Positions 1,658 through 41,717 of a DNA stretch of 41,717 nt are shown here, piece by piece. The first letter of the stretch is position 1. Each line of letters opens with the position of its first letter. The stretch is from positions 1 through 41,717 of IMG/VR virus record IMGVR_UViG_3300044999_000013. One strand, given 5' to 3'. The translations under genes and the position numbers were made by a program. The notes beneath the pieces are model-generated. The model was given only the letters and a program-made list of their open reading frames with translations. It was not told the origin of the DNA and searched no databases. The DNA is from a virus.

Positions 1658-1846
1658 TCAGCGGCTGAAGCGGTCAGCCTTCACCGCGGCCACGAGCGCG
1701 TTGGCATTCACGGCCAGCGTCGGCCCGGTCGGGCACTTCGAGTCGCGCAGGGCGTCGAGGTTGCGATGCACCTCCACGCAGGTGTCGTTCCCGTCGCTGA
1801 GGCTCGCCTTCCGCCAGGCGTCGGTTCGGATTGGTACCGTCCTCAT
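1658..1846 (-). CDS. DUF397 domain protein
   Basis: The protein has 62 residues and the whole chain matches the DUF397 pattern: an early WRKASLSDGND, then CVEV, a DSKCPTGP turn, and a C-terminal VAAVKADRF. DUF397 proteins are short actinomycete proteins usually encoded beside an XRE/DUF5753 regulator; the WhiJ/BldB-type developmental loci of Streptomyces are examples. Here the gene directly follows such a regulator, with an ATGA overlap. It probably acts with that regulator, but its biochemical role is not established. Confidence 0.9.
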   Translation of the reverse strand: MRTVPIRTDAWRKASLSDGNDTCVEVHRNLDALRDSKCPTGPTLAVNANALVAAVKADRFSR

Positions 1847-2688
1847 GTCGTCTCCATCCCATGGACGATCTTCGCGATGACCCTGGCCGTCTCCGCCGGG
1901 GTCATCGCCACGTTGTGGATCTTCTCGACCGCGGCCTGGAAGCCGTGGACGTCTGTTGCCTCCCAGATGAACGCTGATGCCTGATAGTGCTCCACGTGCA
2001 CGATCGGCGAAGCGGTCGGAAATTCGATCATGATGAACGGGCCGGCCAGCATCGGGTTGTAGCCCGGTGAGGCACTGGACACCAACTGGATCGTGACGTT
2101 GGGCAGTTCGGCCATCTTCAGCAGGTGTCGCAACTGGTCGGCCATGACCTGCGGCGGTGCGACCGGCCGCACCAGCACTTCGGAGTCGATGAACGCGACG
2201 AGCTCGGCTGGCTGCCGGGTGCGGGTCAGCACGTCCCGGCGGCCGACGCGCAGAGCGATCCGAGTATCGATGTCCCGATGCGCTCCCAGTGTGGCCCGTG
2301 CGTAGTCGCTGGTCTGCAACAGGCCGGGGATGAGCAGCGGTGCGACAGTGGTGATGCGGCGCGCTACCTGCTCGTGCTCGATGAGCCGGGCGAGCTGCTC
2401 GCCGATGCTCGGGGCGCCAGACACGAGCTGGCCCGGACCCTCGGCCTGCCGGCGCAGACCCTGTAGACGCTCGCGCTCGTCGTCGCTGGCGCCAAGGGCG
2501 TCGAGCAGTTGGGTCAGCCGCTGCTCGGACGGTAGGCGGTCGCGTTCCCAGTTGGAGATGGCCGCCGCGGACGTGTTGGCCGCTTCGCCGAGGGCCCGGG
2601 TAGAGAGTCCGGCGCGTTCACGCAGCGCACGGAGGCCGGCCGCGAGTTCGCGTGCCGCGCCGCCGCCGTCACCTCTGTTCACGGTCAT
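1843..2688 (-). CDS. XRE-family transcriptional regulator with DUF5753 domain
   Basis: The protein has 281 residues. An XRE helix-turn-helix occupies about residues 12-65 (LAAGLRALRERAG through AISNWERDRL). It is followed by a DUF5753 domain (about 95-275) containing the typical LLIPGLLQTSDYARA and HVEHYQASAFIWE segments. I chose ATG 2688 because homologues begin close to the HTH and no Shine-Dalgarno site precedes it. A TACTCT hexamer ends seven bases upstream, so the mRNA may be leaderless. A GTCATGTGAC palindrome overlaps the start, suggesting autorepression. It is paired with the DUF397 gene downstream. It could be a phage immunity regulator or a captured host-type regulator. Confidence 0.9.
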   Translation of the reverse strand: MTVNRGDGGGAARELAAGLRALRERAGLSTRALGEAANTSAAAISNWERDRLPSEQRLTQLLDALGASDDERERLQGLRRQAEGPGQLVSGAPSIGEQLARLIEHEQVARRITTVAPLLIPGLLQTSDYARATLGAHRDIDTRIALRVGRRDVLTRTRQPAELVAFIDSEVLVRPVAPPQVMADQLRHLLKMAELPNVTIQLVSSASPGYNPMLAGPFIMIEFPTASPIVHVEHYQASAFIWEATDVHGFQAAVEKIHNVAMTPAETARVIAKIVHGMETT

Positions 2689-2792
2689 GTGACAAGAGTA
2701 GCCGCTGGTCGAGTCGTTTACGCGTTCCCCCGTTTGGGGCATTGCCTCACTGTCACGTGACGTTCATGCTGTCACGTGACAGTTGTGACAGC
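2684..2792. promoter_or_regulatory. Divergent control region with repeated TGTCACGTGAC operators
   Basis: Perfect palindromes GTCACGTGAC lie at 2752-2761 and 2771-2780, 19 bp centre to centre, so nearly on the same DNA face. A one-mismatch copy, GTCATGTGAC, lies at 2684-2693 over the start of the XRE gene, and a half-site TTGTGACAG lies at 2784-2792 before the + gene. The layout suits a repressor controlling both divergent transcripts. The adjacent XRE protein is the obvious candidate ligand, by inference. Confidence 0.65.
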
Positions 2793-2990: not shown

Positions 2991-3832
2991 CCGCCGGGCA
3001 GCCATCGCTCGACGGTCCTGATCGCGCGGCGGGTGCTGCTGCACCGGAGGCGGGCGCCTCCAGCCCGTCCGCGCGGCCGACCGGGACCCCAGGGACGCCT
3101 GCGGTTCCGGTCGCGCCCCAACCCCCGGCGGGGGCGATTGGCCCCGACACCGCTCCCGCCGGGTCTCATCCCGACGAGTGGACGATCCCCTGCGTCGACT
3201 GGCACAGCCGGGCAGGCGAGATCCGCCTGTACCCGACCCGAAGCGGCCGGTACGGGCTCGCTGTCCTACCGGATGGCGAGCCCGTCACCGTCGACCGCGC
3301 CGGGCTGCTCGACCTGATCCGGGCCGCGCAGGCATTGGCCTCCCTGGCCAACCCGGGCTGGGCGGCCGCGCCGGCCGGATTCCGTGCCCACTACGTCGCC
3401 GCCGGCGCCTCGCGCAGCCGGGTCGGGGATCGCGCGACCGCAGTGTCGGTGTGCGGGGCGCTCGCCTACATCGACGAGGACAGCCTCAGTGAGGCCGAGA
3501 TCACGCAGCGCTGCCACGCGTGTGAGCGGCGGCTGATGATCGAGAGGACTCTGGTGGACGGTGCCCGCGTCGACTGGGACATGTGGAACGTCCACGACGC
3601 CTGCCGACCCGGTTATGAGCGATTCGTGATCCTGAAGGCCTTGGGTGTCGGCCCGGTCGAGGGGATGACGCTGCGGCAGATCCGCGAGGCGCCGCCGTCG
3701 GCGGACGCGGTGGCGGACGAGCGGCTGCTGGAACTGGTCTACGAGGGTTTCGTGGTCAGGCCGGGCCCGCACTACCTGTGGCAGCTCGACAAAACGGGCG
3801 CGACGCGCTGGTACGACCGGAGACGGCCGTGA
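2987..3832 (+). CDS. Hypothetical protein with Pro/Ala-rich N-terminus and CxxC-type segment
   Basis: This 281-residue protein has a low-complexity Pro/Ala/Gly N-terminus (about 1-62) and then a folded region. A Cys-containing stretch, SVCGALAYIDEDSLSEAEIT then CHACERR, at about residues 155-185 could bind zinc. The C-terminal 60 residues resemble a winged-helix layout (ADERLLELVYEGFVVRPG, then a strand ending in RWYDRR). ATG overlaps the preceding stop and GTGA couples it to the next gene. A DNA-binding or adaptor role is possible but unproven. Confidence 0.7.
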   Translation: MTAGQPSLDGPDRAAGAAAPEAGASSPSARPTGTPGTPAVPVAPQPPAGAIGPDTAPAGSHPDEWTIPCVDWHSRAGEIRLYPTRSGRYGLAVLPDGEPVTVDRAGLLDLIRAAQALASLANPGWAAAPAGFRAHYVAAGASRSRVGDRATAVSVCGALAYIDEDSLSEAEITQRCHACERRLMIERTLVDGARVDWDMWNVHDACRPGYERFVILKALGVGPVEGMTLRQIREAPPSADAVADERLLELVYEGFVVRPGPHYLWQLDKTGATRWYDRRRP

Positions 3833-40245: not shown

Positions 40246-40463
40246 GTCGTCTCCGTTCGGGCGTGGACTGCTTCGGCTGGCCAGGGGATGCGATCGGTGC
40301 CGTCGTCGTAGCGCGGGATCTCGACCCACACCACCGGGAAGTCGTGGACCTTCCGGCCGTCGCGGAACCTTCCCTCGACATCGGACCGAGCGATCGCGGC
40401 ATGCTTGTTGCCGTCGACATCGATCACGATGACCGGCTGGCCGTCGGTGTAGCGCTCGGTCAC
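40242..40463 (-). CDS. Small beta-barrel-like early protein
   Basis: The protein has 73 residues; GTG 40463 follows GGAGGACCA and overlaps the previous stop. A strand-rich chain (GQPVIVIDVDGNKHAAIARS, VHDFPVVWVEIP) suggests an SH3-like fold. It ends ETT at a repeated junction. Function unknown. Confidence 0.6.
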   Translation of the reverse strand: MTERYTDGQPVIVIDVDGNKHAAIARSDVEGRFRDGRKVHDFPVVWVEIPRYDDGTDRIPWPAEAVHARTETT

Positions 40464-40666
40464 TGGTCCTCCGTTCGGGCGGCTTGGGCGGCAGCGAGGC
40501 GCTGCCAGTGGCTGATCCGGTTGTGCAGGTGCCGACCAGTGAGCGGGTTCGTGCAATACGCGTCCCGGGGCGCCTGGCACAGCGGGCACTGGACGGCGAG
40601 GGACTCGTCCTGCGCTGCCAGGTCCTCGGCTACCGGGGCGGTGACGGAATGCAGGCGGCGGGTCAC
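40460..40666 (-). CDS. Phage zinc-finger protein (CPxC...C...H)
   Basis: The protein has 68 residues; GTG 40666 follows GGAGGTGACC. CPLCQAPRDAYCTNPLTGRH then NRISHWQRLAAA matches the short mobile zinc finger often found in actinophage proteins (CPxCxAxPxxxC...GxxxHxxR). It precedes the replication-type gene. It may bind nucleic acid or a partner; no activity can be stated. Confidence 0.65.
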   Translation of the reverse strand: MTRRLHSVTAPVAEDLAAQDESLAVQCPLCQAPRDAYCTNPLTGRHLHNRISHWQRLAAAQAARTEDQ

Positions 40667-40669
40667 GGG

Positions 40670-41398
40670 TCACCTCCGGGTGGTCGGGGATCGGGAACGG
40701 CTGCGACGACGAGAGCCAGGACGCGGCGGAGATCGTTGTGAGTTGTCCACACTCGACTCGCTGCCCTCTGGTGGTTGCGTATGGAGTTCGGAAGGTTGGG
40801 TCGTCTGTGGGTGGTTGGTTATGTGGTTGGTAGTTGGAAATGCAGGGCTTCCGGTCAATCGCTGAAAACTTCCGGTCAATCGATCCGGCGCGTCGCCGAT
40901 TTCATGATCGTCCGGCGCGCGGCCATTGGATTGAGCGGAAGCTAGGGTTTCCAGTGGATCGGTGCCGTCCCCCGAGTTATCCACAGGGGAATCGACCGAT
41001 TGACTGGAAACCTGGGCTTCCGGTCGTTCCGGCAATCCGTTCGGCCCGAGCAACACGTGCCGATCCAGCAGATCGGTCGGGATCGTCAGTCGGTAGTCGG
41101 CCGCCCTGCCCGACCGACCACGGCCGCCGCCGCGCGTCATCTGCTCCAGCAACCCCCAGTCCCGGCACAGCGACCGCAACGCGTTGGCCGCGGTGCGCTC
41201 GCTGCGACCGATCGCCGCCGCCAGCAACTCCAGGCCCGGCCGCACCCGCGAACCGTCCGCGTCGGCCCACGTGGCCAGGAGCAGTGCCACGAGCTTGTGC
41301 TGTGGAGGCATGACGATCCGGCGAACAAGCCGCTCCCACTCGAAGCGGCCGATCGGCATCAGGACCGCATCGCGCGGCAGGTCGAGCACGTGGGTCAA
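40670..41398 (-). CDS. Winged-helix replication initiator-like protein
   Basis: The protein has 242 residues. TTG 41398 is preferred because GGGAGG lies seven bases upstream and the codon overlaps the previous stop (TTGA); GTG 41389 would have no site. Residues about 15-110 form a winged-helix/HTH domain of the phage replication-protein type: MPPQHKLVALLLATWADADG, LELLAAAIGRSERTAANALR, then DYRLTIPTD. The C-terminal half is low in complexity and encodes VDNS twice and RLTGS repeats because its DNA carries DnaA boxes and iterons. It would load replication at this internal origin, as lambda O does; this role is inference. Confidence 0.7.
   Translation of the reverse strand: MTHVLDLPRDAVLMPIGRFEWERLVRRIVMPPQHKLVALLLATWADADGSRVRPGLELLAAAIGRSERTAANALRSLCRDWGLLEQMTRGGGRGRSGRAADYRLTIPTDLLDRHVLLGPNGLPERPEAQVSSQSVDSPVDNSGDGTDPLETLASAQSNGRAPDDHEIGDAPDRLTGSFQRLTGSPAFPTTNHITNHPQTTQPSELHTQPPEGSESSVDNSQRSPPRPGSRRRSRSRSPTTRR
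40743..41039. other. Predicted replication origin (DnaA boxes and iterons)
   Basis: DnaA boxes TTGTCCACA (40743-40751) and TTATCCACA (40977-40985) match actinobacterial and general consensus. CTTCCGGTCAATCG occurs at 40848-40861 and 40869-40882, exactly 21 bp apart. Inverted variants lie at 40928-40941 and 40997-41010 (two mismatches each), a weaker copy at 40948-40961, and a partial one near 41017. A GC-poor stretch lies at 40801-40845. All are inside the coding sequence of the replication-type gene. Confidence 0.65.
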
Positions 41399-41664
41399 GA
41401 GGTCGCCTCCCGTCCAACACGGCGTGCCGTCAGCGCCTTCCGCTGGTGTCGGTCCAGGCCGCCCCAGATCCCCCACGGCTCATCAGCGGCCAGCGCGTAC
41501 CGCAGGCACTGAAGAGCGACCGGACACCGGCCGCACACCGCCTTGGCCGCATCGGTCTCGTTGGCTTCGGTGCGCGTGTGGGCGAACCAGCGGTCCTTGT
41601 CCGGCTCCGTCCGGCAGGCCCCGAACTGCTTCCACTCCTCCGACTGGCGGACCGGGCGCGGCAC
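41395..41664 (-). CDS. WhiB-family protein
   Basis: The protein has 89 residues from GTG 41664; an earlier start outside the window cannot be excluded. It has the four Cys ligands of the WhiB iron-sulfur cluster, Cys17, Cys44, Cys47 and Cys53 (CGRCPVALQC), then the GIWGG turn at 65-69 and a basic C-terminus (RRVGREA). WhiB-like proteins bind sigma factors and DNA to alter transcription in actinobacteria, and phage copies can repress host genes. It couples to the replication-type gene by a TTGA overlap. Confidence 0.9.
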   Translation of the reverse strand: MPRPVRQSEEWKQFGACRTEPDKDRWFAHTRTEANETDAAKAVCGRCPVALQCLRYALAADEPWGIWGGLDRHQRKALTARRVGREATS

Positions 41665-41717
41665 GCTCGGCTTGGGGTCGGTCCGCGGCCGACGGCGAGC
41701 CGCCCGGGCGCGGAGGG

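Follow-up and report, generated by a model that had tools for sequence, protein, structure and literature searches.

The contig analysed here, from an actinobacterial virus (41,717 nucleotides; hereafter the window), very probably carries its replication origin inside the gene for its own initiator, as an array of iterons behind the segment encoding the N-terminal winged helix of that protein. The initiator gene occupies positions 40670–41398 on the minus strand and has its likely start at TTG 41398, which overlaps the stop (TTGA) of a WhiB-like regulator gene lying directly upstream (41395–41715, minus strand); GGGAGG is its likely ribosome binding site. Downstream lies a small Cys/His-rich ORF (CPLCQAPRDAYC...H; 40460–40666, minus strand), and a different Cys-rich motif is found at the C-terminus of the initiator itself in the related loci L018, L019 and L021. 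The opposite end of the contig carries a gene for a DUF5753 helix-turn-helix regulator (1843–2742, minus strand).

The initiator comprises an N-terminal winged helix (residues ~12–113), a disordered linker encoded by the origin region, and a basic C-terminus. In the predicted structure only the winged helix is ordered, with pLDDT mostly above 90, and the remainder, including the part encoded by the repeats, is disordered. The protein matched replication-initiation PHROG families, as for the most part did its relatives; these included phrog_391, "replication initiation O-like", at E values of 1.5e-5 to 2e-5. This last family is broad and matches 10 of 14 control genomes as well. In a search of viral folds, replication protein O ranked second (E 2.6e-6). 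Matches to PDB structures were weak (best E 0.017), with plasmid initiators among the nearest, including entries titled initiator and Rep-DNA complex, and a profile search of the sequences of solved structures was non-specific. The Pfam domain HTH_36 (pfam13730) scored 22.9 bits in the window protein against a cut-off of 25 and matched 18 of 27 family members at E≤0.01, and the RepA_N domain (PF06970) was absent among the Pfam matches of the initiator.

Within the winged-helix ORF a 14-bp repeat occurs five times, in three direct and two inverted copies. Two are perfect copies of CTTCCGGTCAATCG (40848–40861 and 40869–40882, plus strand), starting 21 bp apart; two are inverted near-copies with 12/14 matching positions (40928–40941 and 40997–41010, minus strand); and one is a direct copy matching at 11/14 (41017–41030, plus strand) in a reading frame unlike that of the perfect copies. 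The array is the densest repeat segment of the contig, and all close copies of the iteron (≤3 mismatches) near the initiator gene are inside it, with none in front. The same ORF contains two DnaA boxes, box 1 (TTGTCCACA, 40743–40751, plus strand) and box 2 (TTATCCACA, 40977–40985, plus strand), the latter in the conserved context TCCCCTGTGGATAACTC (minus strand), and the contig has no other exact TTNTCCACA site. A sequence-only reading had placed boxes and repeats inside a winged-helix gene, with two perfect repeats 21 bp apart and at least two inverted near-copies, all of which is borne out. Its claim that the boxes bracket the repeats holds for three copies; the other two, at 40997 and 41017, lie outside.

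The array is constrained at the level of DNA. When synonymous codons were shuffled with the protein sequence preserved, the 15 pairs of repeated 9-mers in the array were not reached in any of 5000 shuffles (mean 1.4, maximum 12), and the five-copy motif score of 56/60 was likewise never attained (mean 47.5, maximum 51; 0/300). Two DnaA boxes arose by chance in 71 of 5000 codon shuffles. The same pipeline run on lambda recovered its four annotated iterons.

Directly behind the iterons, as the third element of the origin region, lies an A/C-rich tract of low GC content (40811–40831, minus strand) with two copies of ACCAACCAC (40811–40819 and 40823–40831), which is a candidate unwinding element. 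The GC-poor stretch noticed earlier is real: the lowest GC content over 60 bp is 0.467, at 40812, compared with 0.671 for the contig overall. The GC-skew profile suggested as a check gave no origin signal and was not informative. An unbiased search for enriched k-mers over 21 loci returned TGTGGATAA and ACCAACCAC, and the latter is strand-specific, occurring on the gene strand in 12 loci and nowhere else on that strand in 154 kb. Its G-rich complement, GGTTGGTTATGTGGTTGG, is similar to a G-quadruplex sequence of two tiers.

Searching directly with the window gene, at nucleotide and protein level, returned no phage match, and the sole database match of the window protein was to a linear Micromonospora plasmid. 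The family, assembled from this match and from small alignments, includes M. abscessus prophages, the M. smegmatis mc2 155 phage IdentityCrisis (gene 55) and Mycolicibacterium phages of 10.8 kb, together with some 35 more loci on viral contigs. The nearest relatives of the window are L018, L019 and L036, which are alignable with it through the origin region and group with it in the tree. Among the very small Mycolicibacterium phages, WillG (L010, 10.8 kb) has the same winged-helix gene with six ACGGGACAT repeats. In 40 of the 41 loci, the exception being L045, a five-copy 12-bp motif right behind the winged helix outscored every other segment of its own locus. The same was true of all 11 loci taken from bacterial genomes, among them Amycolatopsis, Nocardia, Arthrobacter and Paractinoplanes; some of these loci are apparently the same elements as the viral contigs. 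The array thus lies behind the winged helix in all 52 loci and is the top-scoring segment in 51, counts that are not independent because the loci share ancestry. Loss of the repeats in homologous genes was looked for and the opposite was found: the array is kept in essentially every relative, at the same position behind the winged helix, while the repeat sequence itself varies between loci and the repeats fall in more than one reading frame. In some relatives it lies outside any annotated gene, and in the Micromonospora element most repeats fall behind the annotated stop of the gene, between two TTATCCACA boxes.

Iteron spacings across loci show a periodicity of ~11.5 bp and none at 3 bp. Loci with more similar winged helices also have more similar iterons (Mantel r 0.33, 0/2000 permutations), and this holds among representatives of <60% identity (r 0.26, 0/2000 permutations). 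Such co-variation is as expected if the initiator reads the iterons. Together with the initiator PHROGs and the O-like folds, the retention of the array across relatives supports the lambda-like origin that had been suggested.

DnaA boxes, whose presence within the array had been singled out, recur at this site in about half of the loci. Across the 41 loci, the origin regions, 24.6 kb in total, contain 31 boxes and the remaining 299.8 kb contain 2; in the 11 loci of bacterial genomes, 6.6 kb of origin region has 8 boxes and the other 61.6 kb has 3. At least one exact box is present at 22 of the 41 loci, and over the 39 rows of the tree box presence switches at least eight times. TTGTCCACA is a documented DnaA box of Streptomyces (PMC3583192).

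We envisage that the N-terminal winged helix would bind the 14-bp iterons, which are set in helical phase, and that the iteron-bound initiator might wrap or bend the origin DNA, the origin occupying the part of the gene that encodes the predicted disordered linker. Host DnaA on the two boxes would then aid melting of the adjacent low-GC ACCAACCAC tract, recruitment of host DnaB, or both; we regard participation of DnaA at this origin as probable, at a lower level of confidence than the origin itself. Recruitment of the host DnaB helicase is proposed because no phage loader was recognised. Searches for DnaB_C, IstB/DnaC and D5_N gave no match over the cut-off in 39 records, three relatives having weak AAA_25 matches, and lambda loader P (PF06992) was found in 0 of 18 records, the window included; the absence of a helicase or loader is tentative, since records may be incomplete and the search was limited to the named families. 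That these elements mark a widespread type of origin in actinobacterial phages and plasmids, at which the iteron-bound initiator and host DnaA on nearby boxes act jointly, the strand-specific ACCAACCAC tract serves melting or loading, and host DnaB is used without a phage loader, we put forward as a tentative proposal that is slightly more doubtful than not.

A rather unlikely competitor is an origin opened by the phage initiator alone, with the DnaA boxes serving regulation (of transcription, copy number or coupling to the host cycle) or titration. In 19 of the 41 loci the 600 bp following the winged helix lack an exact TTNTCCACA box, so DnaA may be dispensable there, and in lambda, whose loader P is the phage's own, box-like sites close to the pO promoter are bound by DnaA (PMC3985674). 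Against this stand the conserved context of the boxes and the lack of a phage helicase or loader match, which makes host-assisted loading plausible. It is improbable that the repeats are operators and the winged-helix protein a transcription regulator with no role as replication initiator: winged helices are common in regulators, and the Pfam and PDB matches include ArsR, MarR and Crp types, but no close iteron copy (≤3 mismatches) was found nearby in front of the gene, the DnaA boxes are concentrated with the repeats, and the PHROG matches of the family are mostly to replication initiators. The initiator may nevertheless regulate its own expression alongside origin function. Plasmid centromeres are also marked by iteron-like arrays, but a partition site in place of an origin is very improbable given the PHROG and fold matches to replication initiators and the recurrence of DnaA boxes. 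Least credible of all is protein-level selection for peptide repeats (RLTGS, VDNS): RLTGS is indeed encoded by two copies in one frame, but we rejected such an origin of the array because the copies occupy three reading phases and both orientations with no 3-bp period in their spacings, the encoded region is predicted to be disordered, synonymous shuffles never reproduce the array, and the Micromonospora repeats lie behind the annotated stop.

Origins within initiator genes are already known from lambda O, pSK41 Rep and pSLA2, and the new part of the embedded origin described here is the combination of DnaA boxes with ACCAACCAC across actinophages. Searches of the open-licence literature on DnaA boxes in phage origins gave no description of such an arrangement, and a paper on mycobacteriophage origins in extrachromosomal prophages reports no repeats in RepA phages (PMC7157519). 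With such a three-part signature in one gene, origin prediction would become possible for many phages and prophages, among them those of Mycobacterium, Nocardia, Amycolatopsis and Micromonospora, and the borrowing of host DnaA by these phages becomes directly testable.

The N-terminal domain of the pSK41-type initiator binds to Rep boxes that lie within rep, and the middle of Rep in this RepA_N type, encoded by the origin, is a linker that can be dispensed with; in pPR9 Rep the N-terminus is an HTH_36 domain related to a phage protein (PMC5703833). The origin of these plasmids resembles the one proposed for the window in lying inside the initiator gene, behind the part for an N-terminal DNA-binding domain, and HTH_36 is matched by the 18 of 27 family members reported above. 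These plasmids differ in the DnaG primase interaction domain at the C-terminus of the pSK41 protein, for which no such partner is known here, and in that no DnaA boxes have so far been detected in staphylococcal plasmids (PMC5703833), whereas the window has two. The pSLA2-type origin of Streptomyces linear plasmids is described as phage-like and centrally located (Chang, Kim and Cohen 1996, cited in PMC1876496). A Streptomyces linear-plasmid locus among our set (L055) has no DnaA box by the pattern used here, unlike the window, and carries a winged-helix gene with a similar internal array (CAGGGGGGACTC, 3378–3472, 22-bp spacing). In pSLA2 the iterons lie inside rep1. Lambda, whose origin within the initiator gene O is established (PMC3985674), differs in having no exact DnaA box at 36.5–41.5 kb by the same pattern, in its own loader P, for which no counterpart was found here, and in its iteron sequences. 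It is like the window in that iterons (spaced 20–24 bp in lambda) lie inside the initiator gene behind the N-terminal DNA-binding domain, and the window protein itself has O-like PHROG and O-fold matches.
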